Shown piece by piece: positions 1-19,670 of a DNA stretch of 64,000 nt (positions are counted from its first letter, which is position 1; each line of letters opens with the position of its first letter). The notes below the pieces were generated by a model, which saw only the letters and a program-made list of their open reading frames with translations, had not been told where the DNA came from and did no database searches. The DNA lies in contig CM026423.1 of NCBI GenBank assembly GCA_014871385.1, forward strand, positions 11,649,952-11,713,951, read 5' to 3'. Both the position numbers and the translations under genes were made by a program. The stretch comes from Ceratodon purpureus. Taxonomy: Eukaryota > Streptophyta > Bryopsida > Pseudoditrichales > Ditrichaceae.

Positions 1-370
1 GTAGTGTCTATTGCACTGAACAATACAACTCGATTTGTCTCACTCCACTATACCGCATTGGGCTCCGTCAAAAAGACGAACTAAGTTGCGGGTATCCTTC
101 CAAGCTCCGCTATAGCTTCAAGGTGGAAGTAGCTACGGCAAAGAGTTTATTGTTGGTTGGATTCGGATGGTCTTAGCGCGTTTCATTGGATTTGGTGAAG
201 AAGATACAAGCGGCGAGTTCCAGATTTGGACGTAACTTTGTCGGTTTGAAAATTTGGGTAATTCAGGAGATACGGGTTCCACATAATTTATTTGAAGTCC
301 ATAAAAGTTCTTGATATTAAACTGATGGTCATATTGATTTCGTTAAAAAATGATTTTCTCAAAAAGCAAA

Positions 371-442
371 AGGAGGCAAGCGGGTTTGAACCACTGACCT
401 ATCGGACTGCAGCCGATTGCTCTACCACTGAGCTATGCCTCC
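371..442 (-). tRNA. tRNA-Cys (anticodon GCA), array copy 1
   Basis: Read on the minus strand, the gene folds into a full cloverleaf. The acceptor stem GGAGGCA/TGCCTCC is perfect, as are the D stem GCTC/GAGC and the anticodon stem ATCGG/CCGAT. The anticodon loop is CTGCAGT, giving anticodon GCA, and the T stem AGTGG/CCGCT has one G-T pair. The base after the acceptor stem is T, the U73 discriminator expected of tRNA-Cys. The A box (TAGCTCAGTGG) and B box (GGTTCAAACC) are present. A run of four T starts at the discriminator and a second T run follows, giving an RNA polymerase III terminator. The acceptor, anticodon and T stems differ from my recollection of the usual plant nuclear tRNA-Cys, yet all remain paired. 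I see no obvious TATA or CAA motif just upstream. Confidence 0.93.
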
Positions 443-965
443 GTACCGAGATCGAGCGGTGCCAAGAACTTTCGGAGCAGGACCCTTGATGACACAAAAG
501 TAAATTTTAAAAACAGTGACTTTCTTTGGATCACTATTCTTAATCCCGCACTCCAAAGAGAGTCATTGTTTTTTCTTTTGGTGAAATAAAGGGAAGTAGT
601 GTCTATTGCACTGAACAATACAACTCGATTTGTCTCACTCCACTATACCGCATTGGGCTCCGTCAAAAAGACGAACTAAGTTGCGGGTATCCTTCCAAGC
701 TCCGCTATAGCTTCAAGGTGGAAGTAGCTACGGCAAAGAGTTTATTGTTGGTTGGATTCGGATGGTCTTAGCGCGTTTCATTGGATTTGGTGAAGAAGAT
801 ACAAGCGGCGAGTTCCAGATTTGGACGTAACTTTGTCGGTTTGAAAATTTGGGTAATTCAGGAGATACGGGTTCCACATAATTTATTTGAAGTCCATAAA
901 AGTTCTTGATATTAAACTGATGGTCATATTGATTTCGTTAAAAAATGATTTTCTCAAAAAGCAAA

Positions 966-1037
966 AGGAGGCAAGCGGGTTTGAACCACTGACCTATCGG
1001 ACTGCAGCCGATTGCTCTACCACTGAGCTATGCCTCC
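966..1037 (-). tRNA. tRNA-Cys (GCA), array copy 2
   Basis: Same 72-nt gene as copy 1, no difference seen. Confidence 0.93.
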
Positions 1038-1560
1038 GTACCGAGATCGAGCGGTGCCAAGAACTTTCGGAGCAGGACCCTTGATGACACAAAAGTAAAT
1101 TTTAAAAACAGTGACTTTCTTTGGATCACTATTCTTAATCCCGCACTCCAAAGAGAGTCATTGTTTTTTCTTTTGGTGAAATAAAGGGAAGTAGTGTCTA
1201 TTGCACTGAACAATACAACTCGATTTGTCTCACTCCACTATACCGCATTGGGCTCCGTCAAAAAGACGAACTAAGTTGCGGGTATCCTTCCAAGCTCCGC
1301 TATAGCTTCAAGGTGGAAGTAGCTACGGCAAAGAGTTTATTGTTGGTTGGATTCGGATGGTCTTAGCGCGTTTCATTGGATTTGGTGAAGAAGATACAAG
1401 CGGCGAGTTCCAGATTTGGACGTAACTTTGTCGGTTTGAAAATTTGGGTAATTCAGGAGATACGGGTTCCACATAATTTATTTGAAGTCCATAAAAGTTC
1501 TTGATATTAAACTGATGGTCATATTGATTTCGTTAAAAAATGATTTTCTCAAAAAGCAAA

Positions 1561-1632
1561 AGGAGGCAAGCGGGTTTGAACCACTGACCTATCGGACTGC
1601 AGCCGATTGCTCTACCACTGAGCTTTGCCTCC
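1561..1632 (-). tRNA. tRNA-Cys (GCA), array copy 3, U8A variant
   Basis: Differs from copy 1 at tRNA position 8, where the nearly invariant T is replaced by A. U8 normally makes a tertiary pair with A14, so this copy may fold less well. Confidence 0.88.
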
Positions 1633-2155
1633 GTACCGAGATCGAGCGGTGCCAAGAACTTTCGGAGCAGGACCCTTGATGACACAAAAGTAAATTTTAA
1701 AAACAGTGACTTTCTTTGGATCACTATTCTTAATCCCGCACTCCAAAGAGAGTCATTGTTTTTTCTTTTGGTGAAATAAAGGGAAGTAGTGTCTATTGCA
1801 CTGAACAATACAACTCGATTTGTCTCACTCCACTATACCGCATTGGGCTCCGTCAAAAAGACGAACTAAGTTGCGGGTATCCTTCCAAGCTCCGCTATAG
1901 CTTCAAGGTGGAAGTAGCTACGGCAAAGAGTTTATTGTTGGTTGGATTCGGATGGTCTTAGCGCGTTTCATTGGATTTGGTGAAGAAGATACAAGCGGCG
2001 AGTTCCAGATTTGGACGTAACTTTGTCGGTTTGAAAATTTGGGTAATTCAGGAGATACGGGTTCCACATAATTTATTTGAAGTCCATAAAAGTTCTTGAT
2101 ATTAAACTGATGGTCATATTGATTTCGTTAAAAAATGATTTTCTCAAAAAGCAAA

Positions 2156-2227
2156 AGGAGGCAAGCGGGTTTGAACCACTGACCTATCGGACTGCAGCCG
2201 ATTGCTCTACCACTGAGCTTTGCCTCC
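2156..2227 (-). tRNA. tRNA-Cys (GCA), array copy 4, U8A variant
   Basis: Carries the same position-8 T-to-A change as its neighbour at 1561, so the two adjacent copies share ancestry within the array. Confidence 0.88.
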
Positions 2228-2750
2228 GTACCGAGATCGAGCGGTGCCAAGAACTTTCGGAGCAGGACCCTTGATGACACAAAAGTAAATTTTAAAAACA
2301 GTGACTTTCTTTGGATCACTATTCTTAATCCCGCACTCCAAAGAGAGTCATTGTTTTTTCTTTTGGTGAAATAAAGGGAAGTAGTGTCTATTGCACTGAA
2401 CAATACAACTCGATTTGTCTCACTCCACTATACCGCATTGGGCTCCGTCAAAAAGACGAACTAAGTTGCGGGTATCCTTCCAAGCTCCGCTATAGCTTCA
2501 AGGTGGAAGTAGCTACGGCAAAGAGTTTATTGTTGGTTGGATTCGGATGGTCTTAGCGCGTTTCATTGGATTTGGTGAAGAAGATACAAGCGGCGAGTTC
2601 CAGATTTGGACGTAACTTTGTCGGTTTGAAAATTTGGGTAATTCAGGAGATACGGGTTCCACATAATTTATTTGAAGTCCATAAAAGTTCTTGATATTAA
2701 ACTGATGGTCATATTGATTTCGTTAAAAAATGATTTTCTCAAAAAGCAAA

Positions 2751-2822
2751 AGGAGGCAAGCGGGTTTGAACCACTGACCTATCGGACTGCAGCCGATTGC
2801 TCTACCACTGAGCTATGCCTCC
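2751..2822 (-). tRNA. tRNA-Cys (GCA), array copy 5
   Basis: Same as copy 1, with T8 restored. Confidence 0.93.
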
Positions 2823-3345
2823 GTACCGAGATCGAGCGGTGCCAAGAACTTTCGGAGCAGGACCCTTGATGACACAAAAGTAAATTTTAAAAACAGTGAC
2901 TTTCTTTGGATCACTATTCTTAATCCCGCACTCCAAAGAGAGTCATTGTTTTTTCTTTTGGTGAAATAAAGGGAAGTAGTGTCTATTGCACTGAACAATA
3001 CAACTCGATTTGTCTCACTCCACTATACCGCATTGGGCTCCGTCAAAAAGACGAACTAAGTTGCGGGTATCCTTCCAAGCTCCGCTATAGCTTCAAGGTG
3101 GAAGTAGCTACGGCAAAGAGTTTATTGTTGGTTGGATTCGGATGGTCTTAGCGCGTTTCATTGGATTTGGTGAAGAAGATACAAGCGGCGAGTTCCAGAT
3201 TTGGACGTAACTTTGTCGGTTTGAAAATTTGGGTAATTCAGGAGATACGGGTTCCACATAATTTATTTGAAGTCCATAAAAGTTCTTGATATTAAACTGA
3301 TGGTCATATTGATTTCGTTAAAAAATGATTTTCTCAAAAAGCAAA

Positions 3346-3375
3346 AGGAGGCAAGCGGGTTTGAACCACTGACCT
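3346..3375 (-). pseudogene. Split tRNA-Cys, 3' half
   Basis: The acceptor 3' strand and T-arm of array copy 6, cut off at the variable loop by the 13.26-kb insertion. The missing 5' part lies at 16653-16694. The last 18 bases (3358-3375) are the left copy of the target-site duplication. Neither piece can make a tRNA. Confidence 0.95.
3358..3375. repeat. Target-site duplication, left copy
   Basis: The 18-bp word GGTTTGAACCACTGACCT occurs here and again at 16635-16652. The bases on either side differ between the two copies, which fixes the ends. Read on the minus strand it holds the B box and variable loop of the tRNA gene. Confidence 0.93.
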
Positions 3376-5529
3376 TGAAATCCCCACCGGGGTTATTGTA
3401 ACAATTGGCTAGAGACAGACCGGTTTTATCCGGCCCGTAAAAGTTTTTCATCTTACTGGGGAATTTAGTTACCCTTGTGTTCACTAGTCTGATTAACAGA
3501 CTGTAGCGAATGGCTTACTACCATTTACTGGGAAATATCTTTCCCTGTCACATTCCTGCTCTATTGTGTATAAAGATATTATAATGTAATAAAGTACTTG
3601 CTGATCTTCCTATTGCAAACCATTGAAGACAGAGTCTCCCTGTACTCGATAAAAGATCCGACTATCTAGGTAATTATTGAGTTATCTTAATGACAACCTA
3701 AGAGTACCCCTTAATTGCAAAGCTCAATCATCAAGGGAAATAATGAGACGGGAGACAAAACTGATGAAACCTTATCTGGTTCCCCCAAGTGGAGTCCACA
3801 TGATTAGCTAGTTTGATGAGCTGGGGCTTGAAACTTGAGTAGTAATTGGTTCTTCAGTTTGAGAACTCCCAGTTGCAATTCGAAAAGCTGCTGTTGTTGT
3901 CCATGGAGCTTGGTGCGTCTGTCCCATTCGTTGGAGCAGAAGAAAGTCCCAGTTTGCCTCCTCTAAAACGAGTGGTGAAAAAAGAAAAAAAAGAAAGCAA
4001 AGAAAAAGGCGAGATGTCTCGATTGCCTCGGTCCCATGAGCAGCAGTAATTGCCTTTCTCATGGGCTTTAGCTGCCTGGCGAATTATCCCTGAATGCCTA
4101 AAAAACCAATCCAATGCTAGAAGAGCAAATTGGGCTAGCCTACTAAATACAAAAGAGGGAGGAACTGGCCCAAATCGAAAATTAAGACCCCCATATACAT
4201 GAGAATTATAGTAAAATTTGAAGGGAAATTGGCTGTAATCAACTGGCAGTGGGGTAGGAGAGAAATGGATCAAAAAACGGAAGAAATAGAAGGGAAGGAG
4301 AAAAGCTAAAGGAAAAAAATAAAATGAAGGAAAGGAGGGGGTGGGTAGTGAAACTACCCGGGTGAAATAATTGCGACCCTTCACAGGTTACACGTTTGAC
4401 AGCTGTGAACGGTCGCGCTCTCGGGATGAGCCGCGCATATCTTGTCACAGTTAGCATCTTAGGTGGGGCTAGCACCGTTGGTTGGGAACAACTCAGTTTC
4501 CTGCCAATAATTGCTCACTAGAGGGTTTGTCAAGCCACTTCATGCCACCGACCCGCTCAACGGGGCCTTGTTACGGATTCGAACCCGGACCGGTTCGAAT
4601 AACAAACGCTCTTATAACCATCCCAACCAACGAAAGAGCTTGTGGCTTGACGTACATCTCAAAATAAGCAACACTATAAGTATAAGAGAAAAAAAACTCA
4701 CCCCTTACTGATCTCTCTGTTTTTTCTCTCAATTCTCTCTCTTTTTTCTCTCAGAGACTGGCCTGTTCCCTTATGTTAACTGCCCTGTACCTTTGAAAAT
4801 AAAACCCCTGTCCTCCAAACAAGGGATTCTTTCTCGGGCCTCCTGATGCGTACGTAGATCTTCTGCTGAAAACTTCCTTCTTGTGGCGAGATGAACTATA
4901 CTCTGCTGTTTGAAATTAGGTCAAACGCTGGAATACTTTCGGTGGGGAAGGTTTTGGTGTCTGAGAATCTGCCTTCTGATTTCTCCTTGATTGTTGTCCA
5001 TTGGTCATCTTGAAATTGTCGATGGCCCTTCCCTTCCTTCTCCTCTTACATCTGTGAGAGAGTTTTAGGTCAGAAATTTACCAAATAGGGAGGAGATGTG
5101 GGCGTGTTGGGAGTCCCTCAGGTACCGTTAGAATTATCTAGCTCCTCGTGAGAGCTACTGCTGTTGGCTGAAATGAAGGCGCTGCTTCTCCGATGTCGAA
5201 ATCTGAACCTAAGAATTCCCAGCCGTGGCTTCTCCTTCTAAAACCTCGTTGTAGCTGGTTGAGTCGATTGCTTGTTGCAATTACTTCTCGGATTTTAGGT
5301 TGGGTTGAGAGGATCGGTGAAGATCCGGTGATGAGTCGCAATGTCGAGTCCTATCTGGGTGTTTCCTGTCTTGTTGAGGCACAATGTCACTTCTCTTTCA
5401 TTTGCTCCCATCATGAGCCGTCATTGGCGATTTCCTTTGATCTGGGTGCTCAATGTTAGGTTTTTATTGAGGCTGTCCCTTCTTCGCTCTTCATCATCGT
5501 CAATTATGGGTCTGTCTGAATCCCGAGAG
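3376..5529. other. Non-coding 3' part of the element
   Basis: No convincing gene. It holds the terminal hairpin at 3382-3392, a purine-rich plus-strand tract at about 4250-4345, a perfect small hairpin near 4346-4362 (GGGTAGT, GAA loop, ACTACCC), the tRNA-like motif at 4568-4627 and a pyrimidine-rich stretch at about 4700-4755. Long minus-strand open frames at 3854-4384 are low-complexity read-through of the purine tract. Confidence 0.5.
4568..4627 (-). promoter_or_regulatory. tRNA-like RNA polymerase III promoter motif
   Basis: On the minus strand, 4576-4586 reads GGTTCGAATCC, a perfect match to the B-box consensus. About 30-40 nt upstream (4614-4627) is an A-box-like word (TGGTTGGGATGG, one mismatch). 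The B box also sits in a palindrome: TTGTTA (4568-4573) and TTCGAACC (4578-4585) pair with GGTTCGAA (4592-4599) and TAACAA (4600-4605). The cloverleaf is degenerate, so this is not a tRNA gene. It could be a SINE-like head or a structural motif of the element's RNA. Confidence 0.4.
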
Positions 5530-5537
5530 TATAAAAT
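5530..5537 (+). promoter_or_regulatory. TATA box for plus-strand ORF
   Basis: TATAAAAT on the plus strand, in a GC-richer surrounding, about 185 bp before the ATG at 5723. It is a good match to a plant core promoter and points away from the LINE's own transcription direction. Confidence 0.4.
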
Positions 5538-5722
5538 GGGGTGCGGTGTCTCTGGCGAATTCGTGTGTTGTATGAGTTTCTCTGGAGGTTCTCCCCTGTC
5601 TGCAACTTCGGTGGGGTTTTGTTACTTGGGTATTCGCCATGGCTGGCTCCCGGAGCCTTATCTTCCAATGGCTCTCCGTCGTGTATCGTCGCTAGGAGGT
5701 GGATCGCTTGAATTTGCCCGCA

Positions 5723-6214
5723 ATGCCCGCGCTGAAGGAGGTTTTGTTCAGCACCGGGAAGATAAAGTGGACTGAGGCGTGTTTTAACGAACTCCATCTG
5801 ATGGGGTGTGCCGTGGGGATCTCCTTCTTTCAGTATGTGCGCGATCTCAAGATTCCGGAGGTTGAAGGGATGTGCGCGGCATATCCGGTGCTAATTACTG
5901 GAGCAAATTCCAGCGGGTCTTCTTCCTCGTCTTCGTCTGATTGTAAGACCGAGTCCTTGGCCAAGACCACATCGTCGGGGAGTGGGTCCGGTTTAGATGG
6001 CAGTGATGATTCTGGCGGGATCGGTGTGTATGTTGAATCTTCTCCTGATCGTGAACCTGCTGATAGTGACGATCCTCCTTACTACTTCGGTGCGCCAGAT
6101 TCGTCGTCCAGCGAGGATAGCGCTTATAATTCCTTCACCACTCGAGAGTCTGAGGGTAAATCCTGGTCTTCGACTGGAGCAGTGTCTCCCTGCTCGGGTT
6201 ATGACTCGTTCTAA
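5723..6214 (+). CDS. 163-aa acidic, Ser/Asp-rich protein, antisense to the LINE
   Basis: Starts at ATG 5723 and ends at TAA 6212-6214. The first half looks globular (for example KIKWTEACFNELHLMGCAVG). The second half, from about residue 60, is a run of Ser, Gly, Asp and Glu, as in a disordered acidic tail. Mixed codon use with many G/C third positions, absence of repeats at the DNA level and a TATA box 185 bp upstream favour a real coding region. I do not recognise the family and see no catalytic motif. It lies inside the insertion, on the strand opposite ORF1 and ORF2, so it would be an antisense accessory gene, a captured host gene or a chance ORF. Confidence 0.45.
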   Translation: MPALKEVLFSTGKIKWTEACFNELHLMGCAVGISFFQYVRDLKIPEVEGMCAAYPVLITGANSSGSSSSSSSDCKTESLAKTTSSGSGSGLDGSDDSGGIGVYVESSPDREPADSDDPPYYFGAPDSSSSEDSAYNSFTTRESEGKSWSSTGAVSPCSGYDSF

Positions 6215-7216
6215 GATGTTCGGCGAGGTTGCATGCTGAGGCTGTGTCGCACCCGTGGCTTGGAGAGGTGTCTAATACCTCGGTGCTGTTGTTGATATCA
6301 GAAGTGTGATGTTGTAACCGTTCAGTGGTGTTCTTCAGGGGTCTCAGGTTAGGTTTCGAATTTTCCAGACTTTGGGCGATGCCTGTAAAACAATTTGTGT
6401 ATACAAACGCTGTGCAGGAGAAATCCCCCTTTATTTTGCAAAGGCTTGGGTTAAGTAATCGGATTAAGTATAGGTTAGGGATAGTTTGATCTAAGAAACT
6501 CTGATCTCAAGGTTGAACCTGGTTAGTCTAAGCTCTTGGGCTGACTGAATGTCTTCTCTGTTTCTTTGTAAATAGAGTAGATCTGAAAGATCTGTTGGAA
6601 GGAGTAAATGCTGCCTGAGACAGAATGTTGGGTTTGGATTTGTTTGACCTCTGGCTCTAATGGTTTTAGTCTTAAAATCTCCAGGTTATGTCGAGGATTA
6701 GTCTAAGGGTAGGTTGGTGTAAGGATCTATTCTCCAGGATGCTAGGGAGCTAAGGTTCTTCTATAATTGGGCTTGTGTGCGAGAGTTCTTGGATGAAGTA
6801 TCCACCGTTTCTCTCTAACTGGTTGTCAAGGAATCTGATAAATTGTTAAGACAGTAAAGAGGGGTGGTAACTTTCCTGATGGATGAGTGTACGGTGGTTG
6901 AGTCACTCTGGCTGAGTTGTGGAAATCTTGTGGACCCGCCTGACTTTCTGGGGACGCTTGTGTGGGTCACTGTTCCTTGCAGCAGATTGAGTGGAGGACA
7001 GCTACAGAGGGTTTGTCGGATCTGGTGTAACGTCTCTCTCCATCATGTTGTGTTTTCGTGGGGTGTCCGTGGTGTGTGAGGCAGGAGCTCCTTGTTTTTG
7101 ATCTTCTCGGAGTCCGGCCTGCTTGTTGGTCTCCTTCTTACATCTCTGGTATGTTCTTCTATCCCATATGCTGAAGGTCTTGAATCGTTGTTTCTGGCTT
7201 AGGATAGTCTATCTGT
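6215..7216. other. Element interior with no recognised gene
   Basis: About 1 kb between the plus-strand ORF and ORF3. Short open frames only (for example 6864-7079 plus), with no domain or codon signal I would defend. Confidence 0.4.
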
Positions 7217-7450
7217 TCAGTCTTCATCATATCTCTTTTCTACCTGTGTTGCTTCTTCAAGTTCTCTGAGTAGTTCTTCCGCATCCCACCATTCCTCCAT
7301 TCGTTCGTTAGCAAATCGAGGTGTATATGGTTTGTGATTAGGAACGTCGATTGCATGGTGGCCAAGAGTACAAATCCCATGGTGTGCCATGAAGTCGCTG
7401 ACCTCCTGTTGTGCTTGGATATTTGTTCTTGGTGAGGAGGGGGCTGTCAT
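7217..7450 (-). CDS. Possible ORF3 of the LINE, 77 aa, acidic
   Basis: Begins with a true ATG at 7448-7450, only 21 bp after the ORF2 stop, and runs in the same direction. The protein is strongly acidic near the C-terminus (EEWWDAEELLRELEEATQVE) and the composition looks protein-like. No known domain. It could be a third LINE product translated by reinitiation, or a remnant of a longer ORF2 tail. Confidence 0.35.
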   Translation of the reverse strand: MTAPSSPRTNIQAQQEVSDFMAHHGICTLGHHAIDVPNHKPYTPRFANERMEEWWDAEELLRELEEATQVEKRYDED

Positions 7451-7471
7451 TGGGGGGAGGCTGTTCGCGTA

Positions 7472-10400
7472 TTAATTTCCCAGCGGATTGCGAGAGTAGG
7501 TTACCGGTGTTTGTTTCTCTTCCTCCCGTTGCTGTTCCAGGTGAGAGGGGTGGCCGACTCCTATACCCCGTGTTGTTGTTGGTTTTTTCTTGTAAGTTTT
7601 TTGTTTGGGTCTTGTTGTGTGAGTCCCCCTCCTGCTCTGAAATATGTTAGGGGGTTGACTGGGTTGTTGATGTAGTGGTTCTTCCCTTTGAGTTCTTTGA
7701 TCTGAGGGCTGATTCGGATATGTTGTTGGTGCTACATGAGGTGGCTGGTCTTGTGCTTGATTCGTAGAAGCGACTGATGCTCCTTCCGGTTGGGGTGCTG
7801 TGTTGGAAAGAGGAACCGACATAGAAGGTATGTTGATTTTCTTCTTAAACGCCTTCTGTTTTGGTCTGCTAACCGGTGTAGTTCTGCTAGATGAGGGGCC
7901 TTCTGAGTGATTCGAGTTTGTTTGCTGTGGTGGAGATGTCTGATGTTGTGGTGGTTTCTGCGTCTTCTTTTCTTCTCGTCGTTTCTGTTTCTCCACGGCT
8001 GGGTTGTAGTATCCGGTATGGATGGGGATTTTTGGTGGTCCCTTTCTTCTGGTTACTCGTGTCGGCACTGATGTTGGCGTTGGTGTCGTAGTTGGAGCTG
8101 ACCAAGTGCTAAGCGTCAAAACCGGTGTTGCCTTTGGAGGACGTTTTGGTCTTCTTCGACTCCCAGCTGCCGAGCACTCCGCCTGTGAAGGTCTAGTCGT
8201 CATACTATTAGTGTCGACGGTCTGTTTGTATGTTGCTCTGGTACTTCTGCCTTGTGCTGGTCGATATGCTCTTGGTATGGTTGATGATTGTCTCAAAATT
8301 TCTTCCATGGCTTGTTGAAGTAATTCGGTAGCTCTCTTAACTGCTTCTTGCTGATCTTGAGGTTCATCGTCTTCTTCTGTAGGTGTAAAATGACTTTGCG
8401 GGATGTTTGAGGCCATACCTTGAGGTAAGTAGCTTGAAGGTGGAAGTAGTTGCCATTGTAGCAGTCCTTCCCTATTTTTTGCAAAGATGTCGTCTTTAGT
8501 CCAAACTTGGTAGAACAAATTTCGCATATGTTGTTTTCTAGTTTCTGATCGAGGATGTCGGGTGATGTCTCTGTATGCTTCCATCCCTGTAAAAATAACA
8601 GTACGCCAAGCTTGATATAACGCAAGACCTGGATGGAGATTTTCTTGACGAATTTCAAAGGCGCAGCGTTGACACCACGTGTGCCAAAGTAAGGCTGAGC
8701 GCAACAGGTCCCATGGTGTGTTGGTATTGACTATGATCCTGCCCTCGAAATCCCATTTGAAGTTATCATATTCTGGCCTTGTTCCTGGTGCTTGAAGTGA
8801 CCCTGTAATATGATCCGGCCACTGTGCACAGTAGGCTGGTAGTGTGGATGTTGCTCTTAAAGCTTGAAATCTGGTCCATACTATGGCTATGTGTGGACAC
8901 TTGACTAACGAATGTTCTATCGAATCTTCAATATCTGTGTCGTTGCAGATTCGGCAGTGTCCTTCCCCTCCGATCTTTTTTCTCTAGGAACCTGTGGGTA
9001 AGCCTCCTGCTAGAGTTAGCCAGTTCATCATGGCTATTTTCCTAGGTTTCCATTGATGCCATAGTCTGTAGAAAAATTCTGATTGGGCTTGAGGAGTGTA
9101 TCCTACATCCTGGAGGGCTCTTTTAAACCACATAATTTCCTTTGAGTCCTCCAGATGAATCCTATATCCTCTCTTAACTGTATATTGAAAAAATTGAAGC
9201 TTAGGGGCACCAGAAAAGGCCCTCCATGTCCACTGCTTAGGGTCCCAATCCATGTCCCGGATGTAGTTTCTCTCCCAGAGCCAAATTGTTTTACTCTTAT
9301 TTGGTGTAATCGCAGGGTTGTAATGTTCAAATGCTCCATTAGCTCCGTGTCTGGTTACCACTCGGACTTCGGAGTAAATTCTTCTTGGCAGTTCTATCAG
9401 GTTGGGTAAGTGTTCCACCAGTCGATCATTTGGTTGAATTTTATATATTTTTGCCCATTGAGCACCATCTATGATAGTCTGGACATGGTAGACGTATTCC
9501 ATGATGCCGTCATTTTTTTCCGATAGCCAACAGTTCGATCTCATGGGTTCCTGGAATGGTTTCCATGCTATGCTTTGAATAAGTTGCCGTCGATGTGATT
9601 TGACTATTCGACGATGAGCTCCTGTTTGAGTTCTGATCACTCTAGAGGATTTCCACTGTTGTCTCCTTGTTGACCAGAGCTCTCCGATTGTATTAATCCC
9701 TTTGATTGCCCAATTTCTGTAGCGAGTTTTCACGTCGAATCCCCATAGTTGACCCTGGGGTGAACTAATGAGGCGGTTACCATATAATGGTTCGCGTCTA
9801 ATCTCTCCTTCAGTTCGGGGCGGGTGTTGTTCAAGTCCTGTCTGAACTGTGCTCCAACTGTCCAGAATCCCTTTCCACAGTGCTGTGCCCGGGATGTTTA
9901 AGTATTTCGTTTGCTGGTGCATCCATCGTTTAGATTGAGGCCATGCTCCATTCTTCTGGAAGCTAATTTGGTTGATTCTGAAATGTATGAATGCTTTCCA
10001 GGGTTCTTTGTCTGGACACAATCCACGAACCATTAGTTTGGTTAGAAGTGCCCTAGTTTGTGCCCCTAGATCTATGACTTTGATGCCGCCTTTGCTGACT
10101 GGAATCTGGGCGATGGTCCATCTGAGTTTAGCCCGAGTCCGTCCTGCTGCCTTTCCGCTCCATAGGAAATCTCTGATCATTGCTTTTGTTTTCTGGAGTG
10201 CAGTTTTGGAGAAAACCGCGCAGCTCGCCAAGAACCATACAGAGGCTAGGATAACCTGGTTGACTATGAGAGTCCTACCTGCAAGGGATAGAAATTTACT
10301 GCTCCATTTCCTGATTTCATTTCGAATCTTGAGGATCAGAGAGTTGTCCAGTTCTTCAAGAGGAAGTTTGAACCCGAGCGGGAAGCCGAGATAGCGAACC

Positions 10401-12772
10401 GAGGTGTGCTTCGGGACCCAGATCACGCCCATATTTTCCCCCCAGGTCCAGGTACGAATTTCGTCACTAGCCCAAATAGCTCGGGTTTTCTTCCAGTTCA
10501 ATTTGGATCCAGATCCTTCACAATACAAATCCAACACTTTCATAGCCCTAGTCATGTTAGCTTTAGTGCCATATAACATTAGATTTGTATCATCTGCAAA
10601 TTGTGAGGAGCTTACTGGTTCTCCGTTAGGTAGTATGATGCCCTGAACATCATATTTCGGGTCTTGTAACATCATTGCTAGTACATTAGCTGCTATCAAA
10701 AATAAATAGGGTGCAAGGGGGCAACCTTGACGAACGCTTCGTTGTATCTCAAAATCTTCCCCTGCAAGACCGTTTACTAACACACTTGATCTGCCTGATG
10801 CGTATAGGGAACGTACCATTTTAATCCAGTTGCTGTGGAAGCCCATTTTTTCCATGGAAGCTTCAAGAAAACTCCAACTCAGCCTATCATAGGCTTTTTC
10901 GAAGTCTAACAGTAACATTACTAGAGGTTGATTACTTTCTTCACCCCATGATAATGTTTCATATGCCAAATAAATGTTATCAAAAATACATCTTCCTGGC
11001 ACAAACCCTGACTGGGAAGGAACTATCCATTCAGTTAGGTTTTGTGTCATCCTTAATGATAATAGTTTGGCTAGAATTTTATAAATTGCTGGGAGCAAAG
11101 TGATTGGCCGAAAGTTAGTTAAGTATGCTATCTCTTTTGTTTTCGGGATGAGGGTAATCAGTCCAGTGTTTAATTGAACTAATAATTGACCATCCTGGAA
11201 TACTTCTTCAGCGAAAGCTAACACGTGTTCTCCCACAACAGACCATAATGTTTGAAAGAATTCAGTAGGTATACCATCTTTACCTGGTGATTTATGCGTG
11301 GGTAGGGCTTGAACTGCTCGGCTTAGTTCATTGAGAGAAATGGGAGCAATCAAGTCCTCATTTTGAATGTCAGTAACAATTGAAGGCACACTAGCTAAAC
11401 ATGCTGCTCTTGCTGGTGCATTCGCTTCTACCACCGGATCAACCGTATATAGTTGCTTATAAAATTGAGTCGCATAAGCTGATAGATCTTTTTGAGTTCG
11501 GAGTACTGTACCTTCATTAACTAACTCTTTGATTTTGTTTTGTTGTCTCCTTTCTTTGTGGGATTCAAAAAACTCCCTGGTACAGCGGTCGCCTACTCTC
11601 GTCCATTTCGCAGCAGTGGCGTTAACTCGCTTGTTGAGTCTGGCCTGGCGAATTTCATGGAGTTTGGTTTGAGCTCGAGCTATTCTTTCCCGTGTTGCTG
11701 TATCTTCCCAATTTTCATGCAGGTATTCTTCTGCTTCAAGGATTTCTTGAATCTCTTTGTCGTATGTGTCTTGCCACTTCTTAGATCTGGTTCGAGTGTA
11801 GTCATCACTCTTGGCTTTGATTTGCTCTAATGCTCCAGCAATTTTGTCCTGCCAAGAACGATGAGGATTGTCTTCGATGCTGTCTTTCCAAGTTTTAGAA
11901 AGCATCTCTCTTCCTTCATCACATTCTAACAAATATCTGTTAAAATGCAGGTGTTTTTCGGTATGGATATCTCTGTCATGCCACTTGACAAAATAAGGGG
12001 CATGGTCCGAGAGTCTGCGAAATGTGGGCCAAATACCGCAATGGCCACCGATTGACTGCAAGGTTAGATCAAAATATATTCTATCAATCCTAGTTGCAAT
12101 TCGTTTGGGTCCAATTAACCCATTATCCCATGAGTACTGCTTTTTAGTTAGATGACAAAATTCAGGCATCTGAAAAGAATCTGCGATGTTAAATTTAAGT
12201 AACATATTGTGCCACTGACTTTGTTCGGGTGGCTGCATTCCAGTAGTTGGCTGTCCGCCTATTTTATCTGAAATGCTTTCGATATTATTAAAGTCACCTG
12301 CGAGGACCCAATGAGCTAACGGCAGAGGTGCATTCCGGATAGTTTCCCAAAGCTTAGCTCTAGCTGGAGATTTCCCGCATCCGTAAATGCAGATAATACC
12401 CATTAGAAGCCTAGGGTTCAGTTGAAGCGTTATAAATTGTACCCTACCTGGTACGATGATTCCTGTTTGCTGAACTAACGATGTGAGCCTCTTAGTTAGC
12501 AATATTGCTGTCCCTCCTCTAAGCCTATTCTTGTTAACATTAAAATAAGCTTCATTCCAAAAAGACGGTCCTCCCATGTAGTCTAATTGAGTAGTTTTAA
12601 AAGCGCAATCTTTAGCTGAAAATTTATGTTCTTGAAGAAGTAATATATCTGGTTGGGGGTTGAGATGACGAAAATGATCCCTGATAGCATGACGTTTCCA
12701 AACGCCGTCTGTGCCTTGACCTAGACAACTAACATTCTGAGTAACCAGTGTTAATTTAGGTATCACCACCAT
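7472..12772 (-). CDS. LINE ORF2: endonuclease / reverse transcriptase, with one in-frame TAG
   Basis: Nicks target DNA and copies the element's RNA at the nick. ATG at 12770-12772. An APE-type endonuclease fills about residues 5-260: Glu48 in LLLQEHK, Gly159-Asp160 in GDFNN and the SDH motif at 255-257. The reverse transcriptase follows, with SQSGFVPGRC, Asp623 in LDFEKAYD and the catalytic FADD at 725-728 (FADD in place of the common YADD). The frame is closed by TAG at 8984-8986 (codon 1263) but is otherwise open to 7472. Just beyond the TAG lies a zinc-binding segment (HCRICNDTD, then EHSLVKC, Cys1273 onward) typical of plant LINE C-termini. A Pro/Gln/Thr-rich tail follows, to about codon 1766. 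There is no RNase H. The TAG probably makes this copy defective unless it is read through. Confidence 0.88.
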
Positions 12773-15700
12773 GATCGGATTCGGTGGATGTTACAGGCTC
12801 CTCCTGAGCGATATCGCTGGTGTCTTCCTCTGAAGGTACGTTCCTGTGAAAAGAGCAAGCTTTCTTGGTATAAGGTTTGAACGGGGAATCAGGGGCATAT
12901 TGCGGAGCTTGGGGTCCAAGTAGGAGCTCCCAAGTATTCTGCAGATGCTGCTGATATACTATTCGAGAGGGTGCATTGGTTCTAATAGTGTCAGCTAGGA
13001 CCAGCGGGAGAACCTTCCAGGCATACAGTCCTGGTTTGGTAAGTCTGAGTGTGCTCCCAGCTGCTTTGAGGAGCGGGAGAACACGCACAACTTGAAGGTT
13101 CTGGGCTTCTACCGTCCAGTAATAACACCAGATAGCTTGAGTCCAGTCTAGCAAGGAATCTTCATGATCTTTGTAGTTCGAAATGATCTTAGCTATCTCA
13201 ATGTGAATGTCATTGACCATCTGTTGTCGAATGAAGAGCTCACCCAGGTCCTGATTACCTACTATAGTCAATTCTGTGACGGGCATGAAACAGATTGGTT
13301 TGTTGAAGTAGGTTTTTCTCTGACATAGGAACGTGTAGCAATCACGTACAGGCTCATAACGGTAGAAGATAGGAATGACTAAACCTCGTTTAGTAGCGAC
13401 TTCGGGGATGATGCCAACTCCAAGTGAAGTTAGGAACTGATCCGAGAGGTCTGTTGATCTGTAGGTCCTCTTGGTTGCTGTGGAGACTTGTTCTTGCGAT
13501 GAAGTGTCCTGGCTAGATGTATGTGATTTGTTCAGATTTGGTGTTCTGTTCCAGAGATACGGCTTAATTGGTCCACGTTTGTGTCTCGTTGTTGATGGTG
13601 TGGCTTGGGTCGTTGTCTTCGATGGAGCTTTGGCTTGTGATGGTTCTGCATCACCAATTGCGGCTCCATCCCAAGGTACAAAATTATAAATGTTATGAGA
13701 ACCTACCTGGTATTCTGGTTCCTCTGAGTTGAAGCTCTGGGGTGTACACGCTCCTCTTCTTGGCGGGTCGGAGGATGTGGGGATAACGTCGGTGTGAGCT
13801 GTCTTAGTAAAGGCATGAGAATTGATGATTTCCGGTTGTTTACCTTTTTGCTGCTCAACTGGTTTGATGTTCGATTGAGTCTCATCTGATTCTTCAGTAG
13901 TTGCATTTCGGGGGATGTACTCCAGGTAAGGGGAGGAGTTGCCCTTGTGATTAGAGTTTGTTTCTGTGTCCATAGCCTCTGGAATTTCCCCCTTACCTTT
14001 ATGAGTGTCATTTGTGGCTGCATCCATGTCCTTTGTTGCTGTGTCCATGTCCTCTATCATTACACCTTTACCTTTTTGTGTGGATAAACTTGTTGCTTCT
14101 TTGGTGTGAGTAGAGTGATCTGAATTAGCATTTTGACATGAAGTATTTTTGGAATTGCTTACCTGCTTGGCTTGGGGTTTCTCGCTGAGGTCTTGAGCCG
14201 GCTGGTCATTTGGAGTGTGGTCATTGTTCTCAGTAGGATTTTGAGCAGTCTTCACTGCGGAAGTTGTCTGTTGGTTCTTGTCTGTTTTTTCCGGGGGGGC
14301 TTGAGTACTTGTCGTGTAAGTCTTGCTGCTCCCTGGTGCGTCAGCTTGTTGTTTCTGGGGAGGGCGATTAGTTGTGGCTGGATCTTGGTTAGGTTGTTGT
14401 TGCTTTCGGGCCCAGTACTTGTTCTGCAGTCTAGGTTTAGTGCAATTACTTACCAAGTGATCCCAGGATCTACATCTGCAGCATTGATTAGGTAATCCGC
14501 TGTAATCAACCTTGTAGGTGATTCCTCCCGGTCCATCGAGTCTTGGTATGGTGATTTTCGTAGGCATGTCAACTATGGATGTAATCAAGATCCTGATTCT
14601 GAGGCCTGAGACCTTAGCTCTGTAGTGATGTGATTCTTCCACTGTGATGACTTCGGCGATTTGGCTGGCCACTTCTGTAAGGAATTTGGGATCCCTTAAA
14701 AGTCCAGGTAGTCCAACGATTTGCATCCATACTGGATATCGAAACTCGTGTGGGGAGTTGGATTCCTTGTATGTCTCTGGGGTAAAATGAGGGGACCAAG
14801 TGTGAAAGAAGACAGGTTTACCTTGATATGCGTAAGATGTCTTTGTGAGGGCTTCCGTTCTGCCTGCATCAGAGGTAAATTGAGCTTCAAAATATCCTTG
14901 ACCTTTCAATACAAGAGTATCAAATGAGTTGTGTAAGACATCTTTAGCCCAATCTACTAACTCATGATGGTTAGGATTTGCTCCCTGAATATGTCCAATC
15001 AAGACATGAGTTTTGGCATGTTTCAGACTGATCTGAATGGCTTCCATCGTTGCAGGTGACAGCAGGATGTTGATAGGTTCGGGTTCTTTGGCCTCTTCAT
15101 CTTGTTTGCTGCTGGTTGGTGCTGGTACCTCGGTGTCGGTAGCTGTTGGCTCCTTAGTGCTGGGAAGTTGTAGATGCTCCAAATTCTCTTGCGTTTTGCC
15201 TGTGAGTTGTTGAGTATCTGGAGTAAGAACCTCTTTGTTGCGTGGAAGCACTGTCATGATTGGAGTCGGGTTACCGCTGTCTTCTTTAGTGTCGTCTTCC
15301 ACCGGTGTTGTGTCTGTGGATGATGTCTCCATGTTCGTTTCGCAAGTAGTTTGGTAGAATCCTTCCTCTGAGTCTGCTAAGTTGACGGTGTGGATTCTTG
15401 GCAGGTGTGATCCCTCGTAGTCTTCGTGCAGAGGACGTTGAGCTGTGGCGGATTCTCCTCGAAAAGGGCGAAAATCGTCAGGTTGTAGTGGATCTTTGGC
15501 TGCTGGGTATCCGCCTTGCGAAGCCATCACCACCTGGTATTCTTCGCGGACTTCCTCGAACAACTTAGCTCTCCTTGACTGATCACGCTCCTCCTCCATG
15601 TAGTCTGGTGGGAGAGTGTAGAAGAACTTGATCACTTGCTCAAAGTCCGCTAGCTTAAGGCGCCGTCCCTGTGTGGACAGACTGTGACGCCCTCGCTGGT

Positions 15701-16067
15701 ATGCGTGAAAGTTGCACAAGTTTTCCATGTAGATAGTTGCTTGTTCCACCGGGGGGATGTCTGTGCGCGGCAGTTGTTGAAGAAGTCTCAGTCCTGCATC
15801 TGCCGACCAGTGGAGTCGTGAGCGTGGTTTGAGGCCTGTCCGTTCACCAGTGTGTCCCTGTTCTTGCTTCTCGAATCTGATGTCGTCCATGATGGAAGCA
15901 AAAAGGTCTCCGGTGGTGGGTATGAAACGGGGTTCTTTCCTAACTAGCCTGTAAATCTCCAGGTAGACTGGATCTACTCGATCAGGTTCCTCTGCAGGGT
16001 GTGGGGATGGTCTACCGCCTTCTACCGTCCCAACTTCCACCGGAACTGATACCCAAGCATCCTCCAT
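12756..16067 (-). CDS. LINE ORF1: gag-like RNA-binding protein with CCHC zinc knuckle
   Basis: 1103 aa from ATG 16065-16067 to TAA 12756-12758, overlapping the ORF2 start by 17 bp in another frame. A domain resembling plant DUF4283 occupies about residues 380-515 (PVWMQIVGLPGLLRDP, then YKVDYSGLPNQCCRC). A CX2CX4HX4C zinc knuckle follows directly, with its first Cys at residue 529. The middle (about 540-850) is low-complexity Thr/Gln/Asn/Ser-rich. The C-terminal quarter looks globular but is unknown to me. Such proteins bind LINE RNA to form the transposition particle. The frame is intact. The length is about double that of many plant LINE ORF1 proteins. Confidence 0.85.
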   Translation of the reverse strand: MEDAWVSVPVEVGTVEGGRPSPHPAEEPDRVDPVYLEIYRLVRKEPRFIPTTGDLFASIMDDIRFEKQEQGHTGERTGLKPRSRLHWSADAGLRLLQQLPRTDIPPVEQATIYMENLCNFHAYQRGRHSLSTQGRRLKLADFEQVIKFFYTLPPDYMEEERDQSRRAKLFEEVREEYQVVMASQGGYPAAKDPLQPDDFRPFRGESATAQRPLHEDYEGSHLPRIHTVNLADSEEGFYQTTCETNMETSSTDTTPVEDDTKEDSGNPTPIMTVLPRNKEVLTPDTQQLTGKTQENLEHLQLPSTKEPTATDTEVPAPTSSKQDEEAKEPEPINILLSPATMEAIQISLKHAKTHVLIGHIQGANPNHHELVDWAKDVLHNSFDTLVLKGQGYFEAQFTSDAGRTEALTKTSYAYQGKPVFFHTWSPHFTPETYKESNSPHEFRYPVWMQIVGLPGLLRDPKFLTEVASQIAEVITVEESHHYRAKVSGLRIRILITSIVDMPTKITIPRLDGPGGITYKVDYSGLPNQCCRCRSWDHLVSNCTKPRLQNKYWARKQQQPNQDPATTNRPPQKQQADAPGSSKTYTTSTQAPPEKTDKNQQTTSAVKTAQNPTENNDHTPNDQPAQDLSEKPQAKQVSNSKNTSCQNANSDHSTHTKEATSLSTQKGKGVMIEDMDTATKDMDAATNDTHKGKGEIPEAMDTETNSNHKGNSSPYLEYIPRNATTEESDETQSNIKPVEQQKGKQPEIINSHAFTKTAHTDVIPTSSDPPRRGACTPQSFNSEEPEYQVGSHNIYNFVPWDGAAIGDAEPSQAKAPSKTTTQATPSTTRHKRGPIKPYLWNRTPNLNKSHTSSQDTSSQEQVSTATKRTYRSTDLSDQFLTSLGVGIIPEVATKRGLVIPIFYRYEPVRDCYTFLCQRKTYFNKPICFMPVTELTIVGNQDLGELFIRQQMVNDIHIEIAKIISNYKDHEDSLLDWTQAIWCYYWTVEAQNLQVVRVLPLLKAAGSTLRLTKPGLYAWKVLPLVLADTIRTNAPSRIVYQQHLQNTWELLLGPQAPQYAPDSPFKPYTKKACSFHRNVPSEEDTSDIAQEEPVTSTESDHGGDT

Positions 16068-16634
16068 CAGAAGGCACGCTGGAGTGAAGGTGGAGAGAAG
16101 GGTTAAGAGAAAACTCTAGTACTCTTTAGATTTTTTTAAAATTTGATGGGTGGGGTTTGAAAGAGCTCTAGCTGATGCTAAACTCTGGTTAGGTGCCTCA
16201 CAAACTTCTAAACACTAAGTCTAAGCTTGCTTCGCCAGGGTACTACAAAAGGACACAAAGATCCTACCAGTAACTAGTCAGACTCAAACTTTCTCATAAT
16301 CCCAGAATTGTTCTACATACTAAAGCAAAGTGCATGATTTCTAGAGTAACATCATTCGGAGATTCTGGCGCTAACGTTTGCTTCAACAAAAGGCTGAAAA
16401 ACATAAGCTTCCTCACAAGTCTATCCTCACTCAACTCAGCGCCTCGTCAATACTGATCAGAATTACATGAATTTTGTGTGTATATGATCCCTGAGGGACA
16501 ACACACCCGATAATAGACGATATTCACTCAAAGATCATGCAGGTCGTGTAGCAAATAAATTCCCTAGATTTATGGCGGCGGAAGATGCTATGCGCCCTAA
16601 AATCGCGGAGCGATATTTGTCCAGGGGAAAGTCT
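16068..16634 (-). other. LINE 5' UTR
   Basis: 567 bp from the element's 5' end to the ORF1 ATG. No ORF. The 5' end abuts the tRNA target duplication, and the first run of four T on the minus strand lies about 32 nt inside the element (plus-strand AAAA at 16599-16602). Confidence 0.7.
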
Positions 16635-16652
16635 GGTTTGAACCACTGACCT
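16635..16652. repeat. Target-site duplication, right copy
   Basis: Second copy of the 18-bp word at 3358-3375. With the flanking tRNA sequence it rebuilds a normal 72-nt tRNA once the 13.26 kb is removed. Confidence 0.93.
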
Positions 16653-16694
16653 ATCGGACTGCAGCCGATTGCTCTACCACTGAGCTATGCCTCC
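16653..16694 (-). pseudogene. Split tRNA-Cys, 5' half
   Basis: Acceptor 5' strand, D-arm and anticodon arm (GCA) of array copy 6, followed on the minus strand by the 18-bp duplication and then the LINE. A box and B box both survive here, directly upstream of the LINE on the same strand, but no tRNA 3' end follows. Confidence 0.95.
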
Positions 16695-17217
16695 GTACCG
16701 AGATCGAGCGGTGCCAAGAACTTTCGGAGCAGGACCCTTGATGACACAAAAGTAAATTTTAAAAACAGTGACTTTCTTTGGATCACTATTCTTAATCCCG
16801 CACTCCAAAGAGAGTCATTGTTTTTTCTTTTGGTGAAATAAAGGGAAGTAGTGTCTATTGCACTGAACAATACAACTCGATTTGTCTCACTCCACTATAC
16901 CGCATTGGGCTCCGTCAAAAAGACGAACTAAGTTGCGGGTATCCTTCCAAGCTCCGCTATAGCTTCAAGGTGGAAGTAGCTACGGCAAAGAGTTTATTGT
17001 TGGTTGGATTCGGATGGTCTTAGCGCGTTTCATTGGATTTGGTGAAGAAGATACAAGCGGCGAGTTCCAGATTTGGACGTAACTTTGTCGGTTTGAAAAT
17101 TTGGGTAATTCAGGAGATACGGGTTCCACATAATTTATTTGAAGTCCATAAAAGTTCTTGATATTAAACTGATGGTCATATTGATTTCGTTAAAAAATGA
17201 TTTTCTCAAAAAGCAAA

Positions 17218-17289
17218 AGGAGGCAAGCGGGTTTGAACCACTGACCTATCGGACTGCAGCCGATTGCTCTACCACTGAGCTATGCCTCC
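17218..17289 (-). tRNA. tRNA-Cys (GCA), right array copy 1
   Basis: Identical to 371-442. Confidence 0.93.
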
Positions 17290-17812
17290 GTACCGAGATC
17301 GAGCGGTGCCAAGAACTTTCGGAGCAGGACCCTTGATGACACAAAAGTAAATTTTAAAAACAGTGACTTTCTTTGGATCACTATTCTTAATCCCGCACTC
17401 CAAAGAGAGTCATTGTTTTTTCTTTTGGTGAAATAAAGGGAAGTAGTGTCTATTGCACTGAACAATACAACTCGATTTGTCTCACTCCACTATACCGCAT
17501 TGGGCTCCGTCAAAAAGACGAACTAAGTTGCGGGTATCCTTCCAAGCTCCGCTATAGCTTCAAGGTGGAAGTAGCTACGGCAAAGAGTTTATTGTTGGTT
17601 GGATTCGGATGGTCTTAGCGCGTTTCATTGGATTTGGTGAAGAAGATACAAGCGGCGAGTTCCAGATTTGGACGTAACTTTGTCGGTTTGAAAATTTGGG
17701 TAATTCAGGAGATACGGGTTCCACATAATTTATTTGAAGTCCATAAAAGTTCTTGATATTAAACTGATGGTCATATTGATTTCGTTAAAAAATGATTTTC
17801 TCAAAAAGCAAA

Positions 17813-17884
17813 AGGAGGCAAGCGGGTTTGAACCACTGACCTATCGGACTGCAGCCGATTGCTCTACCACTGAGCTATGCCTCC
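17813..17884 (-). tRNA. tRNA-Cys (GCA), right array copy 2
   Basis: Identical to 371-442. Confidence 0.93.
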
Positions 17885-18407
17885 GTACCGAGATCGAGCG
17901 GTGCCAAGAACTTTCGGAGCAGGACCCTTGATGACACAAAAGTAAATTTTAAAAACAGTGACTTTCTTTGGATCACTATTCTTAATCCCGCACTCCAAAG
18001 AGAGTCATTGTTTTTTCTTTTGGTGAAATAAAGGGAAGTAGTGTCTATTGCACTGAACAATACAACTCGATTTGTCTCACTCCACTATACCGCATTGGGC
18101 TCCGTCAAAAAGACGAACTAAGTTGCGGGTATCCTTCCAAGCTCCGCTATAGCTTCAAGGTGGAAGTAGCTACGGCAAAGAGTTTATTGTTGGTTGGATT
18201 CGGATGGTCTTAGCGCGTTTCATTGGATTTGGTGAAGAAGATACAAGCGGCGAGTTCCAGATTTGGACGTAACTTTGTCGGTTTGAAAATTTGGGTAATT
18301 CAGGAGATACGGGTTCCACATAATTTATTTGAAGTCCATAAAAGTTCTTGATATTAAACTGATGGTCATATTGATTTCGTTAAAAAATGATTTTCTCAAA
18401 AAGCAAA

Positions 18408-18479
18408 AGGAGGCAAGCGGGTTTGAACCACTGACCTATCGGACTGCAGCCGATTGCTCTACCACTGAGCTATGCCTCC
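18408..18479 (-). tRNA. tRNA-Cys (GCA), right array copy 3
   Basis: Identical to 371-442. Confidence 0.93.
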
Positions 18480-19002
18480 GTACCGAGATCGAGCGGTGCC
18501 AAGAACTTTCGGAGCAGGACCCTTGATGACACAAAAGTAAATTTTAAAAACAGTGACTTTCTTTGGATCACTATTCTTAATCCCGCACTCCAAAGAGAGT
18601 CATTGTTTTTTCTTTTGGTGAAATAAAGGGAAGTAGTGTCTATTGCACTGAACAATACAACTCGATTTGTCTCACTCCACTATACCGCATTGGGCTCCGT
18701 CAAAAAGACGAACTAAGTTGCGGGTATCCTTCCAAGCTCCGCTATAGCTTCAAGGTGGAAGTAGCTACGGCAAAGAGTTTATTGTTGGTTGGATTCGGAT
18801 GGTCTTAGCGCGTTTCATTGGATTTGGTGAAGAAGATACAAGCGGCGAGTTCCAGATTTGGACGTAACTTTGTCGGTTTGAAAATTTGGGTAATTCAGGA
18901 GATACGGGTTCCACATAATTTATTTGAAGTCCATAAAAGTTCTTGATATTAAACTGATGGTCATATTGATTTCGTTAAAAAATGATTTTCTCAAAAAGCA
19001 AA

Positions 19003-19075
19003 AGGAGGCAAGCGGGTTTGAACCACTGACCTATCAGGACTGCAGCCGATTGCTCTACCACTGAGCTATGCCTCC
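19003..19075 (-). pseudogene. tRNA-Cys copy with a bulged anticodon stem
   Basis: 73 nt. An extra base at 19036 changes the 3' strand of the anticodon stem from CCGAT to CCTGAT, so the stem has a one-base bulge. Everything else matches the other copies. Probably not a working tRNA; a sequencing slip is also possible. Confidence 0.75.
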
Positions 19076-19598
19076 GTACCGAGATCGAGCGGTGCCAAGA
19101 ACTTTCGGAGCAGGACCCTTGATGACACAAAAGTAAATTTTAAAAACAGTGACTTTCTTTGGATCACTATTCTTAATCCCGCACTCCAAAGAGAGTCATT
19201 GTTTTTTCTTTTGGTGAAATAAAGGGAAGTAGTGTCTATTGCACTGAACAATACAACTCGATTTGTCTCACTCCACTATACCGCATTGGGCTCCGTCAAA
19301 AAGACGAACTAAGTTGCGGGTATCCTTCCAAGCTCCGCTATAGCTTCAAGGTGGAAGTAGCTACGGCAAAGAGTTTATTGTTGGTTGGATTCGGATGGTC
19401 TTAGCGCGTTTCATTGGATTTGGTGAAGAAGATACAAGCGGCGAGTTCCAGATTTGGACGTAACTTTGTCGGTTTGAAAATTTGGGTAATTCAGGAGATA
19501 CGGGTTCCACATAATTTATTTGAAGTCCATAAAAGTTCTTGATATTAAACTGATGGTCATATTGATTTCGTTAAAAAATGATTTTCTCAAAAAGCAAA

Positions 19599-19670
19599 AG
19601 GAGGCAAGCGGGTTTGAACCACTGACCTATCGGACTGCAGCCGATTGCTCTACCACTGAGCTATGCCTCC
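19599..19670 (-). tRNA. tRNA-Cys (GCA), right array copy 5
   Basis: Standard copy. Confidence 0.93.

Follow-up and report, generated by a model that had tools for sequence, protein, structure and literature searches.

Insertions of an L1-type LINE in the moss Ceratodon purpureus point to a preference for tRNA genes

In Dictyostelium, the TRE5 and TRE3 retrotransposons carry an apurinic/apyrimidinic endonuclease (APE)-type enzyme and prefer transfer RNA (tRNA) genes of many kinds. For TRE5-A, factors of RNA polymerase III (Pol III) have been implicated in targeting (PMC5391098, PMC5006619). Three long interspersed nuclear elements (LINEs), NeSL-1_TV (tRNA-Pro), LIN15_SM (tRNA-Arg) and LIN25_SM (tRNA-Glu), are reported to be specific for tRNA genes (PMC4640811), so that the use of such genes as LINE targets is not new as such. 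Here, we describe a LINE of the moss Ceratodon purpureus that interrupts a tRNA-Cys gene within a tandem array, in a stretch of 64,000 nucleotides (G000:C3:11649952-11713951 of a 362-Mb assembly) called the window below. Like the TREs, it has an APE-type endonuclease and appears to prefer tRNA genes of many kinds. However, the TREs land outside the gene, about 50 bp upstream or 100 bp downstream, whereas the moss LINE is mostly found inside, at GGT, with a few copies just downstream. NeSL-1_TV, LIN15_SM and LIN25_SM are relatives of the NeSL clade, a clade with a restriction-like endonuclease, and each family uses one kind of tRNA. In contrast, the moss LINE is APE-type and L1-like, occurs in several kinds of tRNA genes and occupies many non-tRNA sites.

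Dewa of zebrafish is also a target-specific LINE at tRNA loci, but its target is the tRNA-Leu spacer and not the gene (PMC3706591). The Dada DNA transposons are similar in using set sites inside tRNA genes, the A box in some families (PMC3706591, PMC8869645), but they are DDE transposons with 6-7-bp duplications and no reverse transcription. A monocot lineage of the plant L1 clade, with a conserved 3′ hairpin ('stringent' 3′ end), resembles the moss LINE in its conserved structured 3′ end (PMC3747384); tRNA targeting is not mentioned in the available part of that report. Most plant L1s end in poly(A), a usual though not a defining trait, whereas the moss LINE lacks it. In the literature searched, with subscription journals mostly outside, neither a plant LINE nor an APE-type L1-like LINE was found inside tRNA genes, and no LINE of land plants was described as tRNA-targeted. 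The moss element would represent a further, distinct mode in which LINEs exploit tRNA genes, and its host seems to possess large tRNA arrays. The bryophyte 'Cpu', which we take to be Ceratodon purpureus (the abbreviation is not spelled out in the main text), is reported to carry over 1000 tRNA genes, with identical tRNA-Ile and tRNA-Cys genes in large clusters (PMC12652284). The motif positions within genes, the natural 44-48-bp stubs and the copies with a stop-free open reading frame 2 (ORF2) described below provide material for separating a tether from a preference of the endonuclease.

In the window, units of 595 bp stand in tandem on both sides of the insert; every unit contains a single minus-strand tRNA-Cys(GCA) gene, and the majority of units to the left and to the right are the same as the first one. 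ARAGORN finds 38 tRNA genes in the window, one of them without a clear anticodon, and Rfam also gives 38 matches. Minor variants occur: one unit of the array carries an extra base close to the anticodon (19003-19075), and a one-base change is common to two units at 1561-2227, whose tRNAs score 63.3 bits versus 67. As originally predicted, the LINE splits one tRNA-Cys gene of the array and is bounded by an 18-bp duplication: GGTTTGAACCACTGACCT is repeated exactly at 3358-3375 and 16635-16652, on either side of 13,259 bp. The 5′ part of the gene adjoins the LINE 5′ end directly upstream, in the same orientation as the LINE. The predicted insertion exactly in the B box was not confirmed, the first-strand nick being located between bases 43 and 44 (sequential numbering), at the border of the anticodon stem and the variable loop. 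The duplication had been read as variable loop plus B box; it does contain the variable loop, but also comprises the 5′ strand of the T-stem, the T-loop and one more base. Because it spans the variable loop to the T-loop, the B-box core is kept in both copies. Comparison among copies suggests that the duplication proper begins at GGT (17 bp here), the 18th base being ambiguous between LINE and target. Considered alone, this copy might have hit a tRNA gene by accident, given the large target that the array offers. Random 18-bp duplications in one 595-bp unit fall wholly inside the tRNA gene in 9% of cases (9-15% of positions yield such a duplication), which makes chance a real rival as long as no other copy is considered.

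Other copies were sought by searching the genome for the LINE 3′ end, flanks being ignored. A DNA search gave 12 places, and a 19-base pattern of the terminus with at most one mismatch gave 37 matches, 18 of them exact, against 0 for the reversed control. Together with L017 (two mismatches, from the DNA search), the pattern matches make up 38 ends, all of which were read. L053 and L054 (flank of L052) and L063 (flank of L062) were dropped as duplicates, leaving 35 independent ends. The terminus common to the 38 ends follows from the construction of the search, and ends of another form would escape it. Yet homology among copies breaks off exactly at the terminus, at sites that are unrelated, so that position 3376 is the true end of the LINE. 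No poly(A) follows the terminus in these 38 terminus-selected ends, the longest A run in the next 12 bases being 4.

Six of the 35 ends are inside tRNA genes, namely those of tRNA-Cys (the window copy), tRNA-Trp, tRNA-Pro twice, tRNA-Gly and a degenerate tRNA-Gly. Assuming 1000-2000 tRNA genes of 75 bp, 0.007-0.014 would be expected; the excess is about 400- to 800-fold (P for at least six of 35, 2e-16 to 1e-14). Without the window copy, five of 34 remain, in other kinds of tRNA and on other contigs, with P still at 1e-13 to 5e-12. The targeting of tRNA genes that had been envisaged is therefore upheld, and chance, which the size of the array had been thought to favor, becomes a very improbable explanation. 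For three of the seven joined empty sites in one set, ARAGORN recognizes a whole tRNA: tRNA-Cys, tRNA-Trp (L079/L055, duplication GGTAGCGCGTCTGACTC) and tRNA-Pro-TGG (L070/L058, duplication GGTCTAGTGGTATGATTCT). In another set (one of 13 joined), it recovers a whole tRNA-Gly-GCC gene at L076, where the LINE is a 44-bp stub and the duplication is GGTCTAGTGGTAGAATAG. The second tRNA-Pro, at L059, has an AGG anticodon and differs from that at L058; it was read on the 3′ side only (Rfam 28.9 bits, ARAGORN positive). Partial Rfam tRNA matches start from model position 8 or 9 at the junctions of L055, L058, L059 and L076, with 25.9 to 36.2 bits, only L058 being above the family cut-off of 29. Spread of a single tRNA insertion by segmental duplication was rejected, the tRNA genes and their flanks being different.

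The tRNA letters at the junctions could also have been copied from tRNA by template switching instead of belonging to the target. The case for this comes from L004 (C9:16644289), where an extra piece matching tRNA-Trp at 22 of 24 letters is inserted between the duplication and the LINE 5′ end. This piece may derive either from a source element located in the tRNA-Trp gene at the L055 site or from template switching on tRNA. As an account of the junctions at large, template switching has a practically negligible probability: at the Cys, Trp, Pro-TGG and Gly sites, the LINE has one half of the gene on either side, together with the duplication, and joining the halves restores a whole gene, L059 being read from the 3′ side only.

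Further copies are found near tRNA genes or in sequences resembling them. L014 is 57 bp downstream of an intact tRNA-Asp gene. L012 and L015 are at one common GGTCTAAGGTAGACAGACC site (C12:12580165-12580216, C12:12538761), about 50 bp apart and 123 bp downstream of a tRNA-Ser gene. The LINE points in the direction of the tRNA at all seven sites with an ARAGORN tRNA in or just upstream of the insertion (Cys, Trp, Pro, Pro, Gly, Asp, Ser). The targets of L010, L016, L051, L061 and L020 are repeats that look tRNA-derived by eye, four of them with a B-box core. The flanks of L010/L016 and of L051/L061 form two pairs, 91% alike, and these two repeat families are possibly undescribed moss short interspersed nuclear elements. 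A B-box core occurs within 80 bp of seven of the 35 ends, versus 140 of 8985 control windows starting with NGGT (p 1e-6).

The base after the terminus, seemingly LINE-derived, is C in 17, A in 15, T in two and G in one of the 35 ends. The next target letters are GGT in 26 and GGTC in 18. At eight sites where both ends were read and the duplication is clean, it begins at GGT, with sizes of 17 bp (Cys and Trp), 19 bp (Pro), 18 bp (Gly), 18 bp (L010), 20 bp (L011) and 19 bp (L014 and L015), and the nicked strand is 5′-ACC^. The short copies L074, L064, L060, L013 and L077 show less exact duplications, some beginning with GGA, GAT or AGT. Twenty-three sites, none of them in a tRNA gene or a tRNA-like repeat, were used to build a weight matrix of 11 positions; L015 was left out as sharing the site of L012, and L012 and L014, near tRNA genes, were included. 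In the four tRNA genes tested, this matrix ranks the real insertion point first among 122-124 positions of both strands. Since the Pro and Gly genes share one 11-mer, these four genes represent three different sites. Within genes, insertions are at positions 9 and 17 in the D-arm/A-box part (Pro, Gly, Trp) and at position 44 in tRNA-Cys. Junctions with tRNA genes thus recur, but not at the same base, and the B box is not the usual point of cutting: only the window copy, L010 and L016 are in a variable loop. The window copy would be there because the A box of tRNA-Cys has no GGTC. Judged by these junctions, what is targeted is not the B box but a GGT-type motif that lies inside tRNA genes or shortly downstream of them.

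Whether this motif is sufficient has to be considered. If the endonuclease recognized sequence alone, in the form of an A-box-like motif (GGTCTAGTGG and related sequences), it would find tRNA genes solely through their possession of this motif, with no Pol III tether involved. One would then understand that the motif places the insertion in four of the four tRNA genes tested, that 26 of the 35 ends have the GGT start and that tRNA-Cys is entered at the variable loop, as the motif predicts. However, control positions scoring as high as the real site amount to 1.3% for tRNA-Trp, 0.18% for tRNA-Cys and 0.039% for Pro/Gly, which corresponds to very many genomic sites; therefore, the motif alone cannot select tRNA genes. 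Moreover, the presence of an intact tRNA gene upstream of two insertion sites, at 57 and 123 bp, would be a coincidence. Recognition by sequence alone thus seems rather unlikely. We infer a tether because the motif is too common and because of these two sites downstream of intact genes: it is somewhat probable that the Pol III machinery (TFIIIC/TFIIIB) guides the integration complex to tRNA genes, as has been proposed for TRE5-A of Dictyostelium (PMC5391098).

The following course of events may be proposed. Once at the gene, the putative ORF2 endonuclease would nick the strand opposite N^GGT(C)NA. The best nick site in tRNA genes would be in the D-arm/A-box part, with GGTCTAGTGG in Pro and Gly and GGTAGCGCG in Trp, and in tRNA-Cys, whose A box lacks the motif, the nick would occur at the GGTC of the variable loop. 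The freed 3′ end would then prime reverse transcription, which would start at the hairpin-bearing, poly(A)-free 3′ terminus of the LINE RNA, and cleavage of the second strand 17-20 bp away would generate the target duplication. At the sequence level, this scheme has as its support the single 3′ terminus at many sites, the GGT start, the duplications, the split tRNA genes and the rank of the motif. The hallmarks of target-primed reverse transcription are present, that is a fixed 3′ end, target duplications and 5′-truncated copies, two elements being without a matching duplication. Five copies (L057, L062, L074, L075 and L076) are stubs of 44-48 bp with target duplications, and they begin at or just past the 3′ strand of the larger 3′ hairpin. 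Their lengths look as if reverse transcriptase had stalled at this hairpin. Further short copies have various lengths, from 95 to 1089 bp.

Several observations weigh against a targeting of tRNA genes at a GGT-type site. No tRNA is recognized at the junction in 21 of the 35 copies, and among 34 single-sided contexts submitted to ARAGORN only the two tRNA-Pro cases were retrieved. The start is not GGT in nine of the 35 (L020, L057, L060, L064, L066, L068, L073, L074 and L078). L008/L016 and L006/L068, both ends of which were read, show no matching duplication by eye. The degenerate tRNA-Gly at L057 is rejected by ARAGORN. The five tRNA-like targets were judged by eye, and ARAGORN rejects the three that were joined (L010, L020 and L051). 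A T-arm scan is positive in seven of 35 flanks versus 3.4% of controls (p 1e-4), but two of these flanks do not look like tRNA by eye. Finally, the number of tRNA genes used in the expectation is an outside figure; our own Rfam tRNA census scored 63 of 18830 candidates.

It may also be imagined that insertion is random at GGT motifs and that copies in multicopy tRNA genes were tolerated while the others were purged. The redundancy of tRNA arrays, and the large tRNA clusters of 'Cpu', taken as Ceratodon (PMC12652284), would suit such survivorship. But purging would have to be weak because 21 of the 35 copies persist outside tRNA genes, and the excess in tRNA genes to be explained is about 400- to 800-fold, which leaves survivorship quite improbable. 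These 21 copies are the insertions at unrelated sites that the original prediction had set against targeting; they stand beside the six copies in tRNA genes, and the element is not strictly site-specific. Taken together, the junction sequences indicate that the family very probably prefers tRNA genes, with a GGT-type nick site. As judged from the same junctions, this is a strong preference, neither strict site specificity nor chance driven by the array.

The LINE itself is full-length, and its parts are given in Table 1. ORF2 contains an N-terminal Exo_endo_phos domain (E 3e-8) and an RVT_1 domain (E 2e-29). It is interrupted by a single in-frame TAG, after which 503 codons follow, ending at 7472. 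When the reverse transcriptase of ORF2 is compared with solved structures, L1 ORF2 chains come out best (E about 1e-52), far ahead of R2 (1e-13). By these matches and by its predicted APE-type endonuclease, the element is an L1-type LINE. No restriction-like endonuclease family was detected in a Pfam scan of both ORF2 pieces, and no ORF2 relatives were found in viral_contigs. The best-scoring named match of ORF2 is a Ceratodon purpureus protein, with 49% identity over 37% of the query. Two other descriptions of the insert were rejected: a recombinase element, no such domain being present among the six insert ORFs scanned, and an older insertion with the LINE nested inside, the terminus at 3376 being common to copies elsewhere.

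Table 1. Features of the tRNA-Cys array and of the LINE that interrupts it (positions in the window)
Feature	Position	Strand	Basis or remark
Array, left part (595-bp units, tRNA-Cys(GCA))	1..3375	-	further units left of window
Interrupted tRNA-Cys gene, 3′ part	3346..3375	-	
Target duplication at LINE 3′ end; LINE sense (A)GGTCAGTGGTTCAAACC	3358..3375	-	exact repeat
Full-length L1-type LINE, 13,259 bp	3376..16634	-	ORFs, domains, related genomic copies
3′ region of about 4.1 kb following ORF2, ending without poly(A)	3376..7471	-	terminus recurs at other loci
Terminal hairpin CCCC-GGT-GGGG of 3′ end	3382..3392	-	
Larger 3′ stem-loop, GGCCGG..CCGGCC type	3415..3438	-	conserved among 12 aligned copies
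In-frame ORF2 continuation past TAG, zf-RVT-like (weak, E 0.13)	7472..8983	-	Pfam scan
ORF2: Exo_endo_phos (APE-type) endonuclease and reverse transcriptase, TAG-ended	8984..12772	-	Pfam scan
ORF1, DUF4283	12756..16067	-	Pfam scan
5′ untranslated region and LINE 5′ end	16068..16634	-	
Target duplication at LINE 5′ end	16635..16652	-	exact repeat
Interrupted tRNA-Cys gene, 5′ part, with A box and almost whole B box	16635..16694	-	ARAGORN, Rfam
Array, right part (tRNA-Cys)	16635..35728	-	ARAGORN, unit comparison

In the two 3′ hairpins, 92% of cells are paired across the 12 aligned copies. Their structure is argued from conservation alone because the covariation measures are not clearly beyond those of shuffles, and folding of the LINE 3′ end as a single sequence is not unusual (z 0.3 to -1.9). 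Rfam gives just four weak matches on 3376-7500, all under the cut-offs. The 3′ region also contains open frames on the plus strand (5335-6214), the second of them serine-rich; the plus-strand ORF of 163 aa at 5696-6214 has no homologue at E 1e-3. On the minus strand, an A/B-box-like stretch is found at 4573-4640, with a B-box match at 4585.

A protein search of the genome with ORF2 gave at least 38 matches (37 of 1298 candidates scored). Thirty were fetched, and the 29 longer ones were read as five clades. Four of the nine members of the closest clade (L024, L026, L027 and L028) have an ORF2 match without a stop. In the most distant clade, L050, with about 42% ORF2 identity, is located between tRNA-Cys units to the left of the window, C3:11643701-11649499 separating it from the window. 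It interrupts another tRNA-Cys unit at the A box, with the duplication GCTC(A/C)GTGGTAGAGCA: the 5′ flank ends with ...GGAGGCAAAGCTCCGTGGTAGAGCA, and the LINE 3′ end reads ...AACCCCGGGGGGGTATTTG followed by GCTCAGTGGTAGAGCA. The 3′ end of L050 is similar to that of the window LINE. ARAGORN calls that span a junction between LINE and tRNA are those of tRNA-Pro in L058 and L059 and of tRNA-Cys in L050. In L112, of another clade, neither a clear LINE end nor an ARAGORN tRNA is seen in the 5′ region. It is tempting, though speculative and on balance improbable, to imagine that a whole moss L1-type lineage lives on tRNA genes through a Pol III tether and the ACC^ motif. In such a model, the 3′ terminus (CCCCGGTGGGGATTTCA, or CCCCGGGGGGGTATTT in L050) would mimic the 5′ acceptor strand of a tRNA and re-cap the tRNA remainder after insertion in the A box, while the split gene may leave its A and B boxes upstream of the LINE, where they would drive it.

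At C1:15236003-15239770 and C1:15200402-15204172, two further matches to the LINE ORF2 are contained in open frames 6595 and 3072 codons long, respectively. Intact tRNA-Gly and tRNA-Asn genes are found about 4 kb upstream of the former, the 3′ part of the tRNA-Asn being tandemly copied. Finally, a partial tRNA-Thr-like sequence (Rfam 37.7 bits) occurs at L013:933-988 (C13:11690769-11690824), where AGCTCAGTGG comes directly after ...CCCGGAAAGGGATTTTC; this junction may represent the 3′ terminus of a different LINE family inserted into a tRNA gene.

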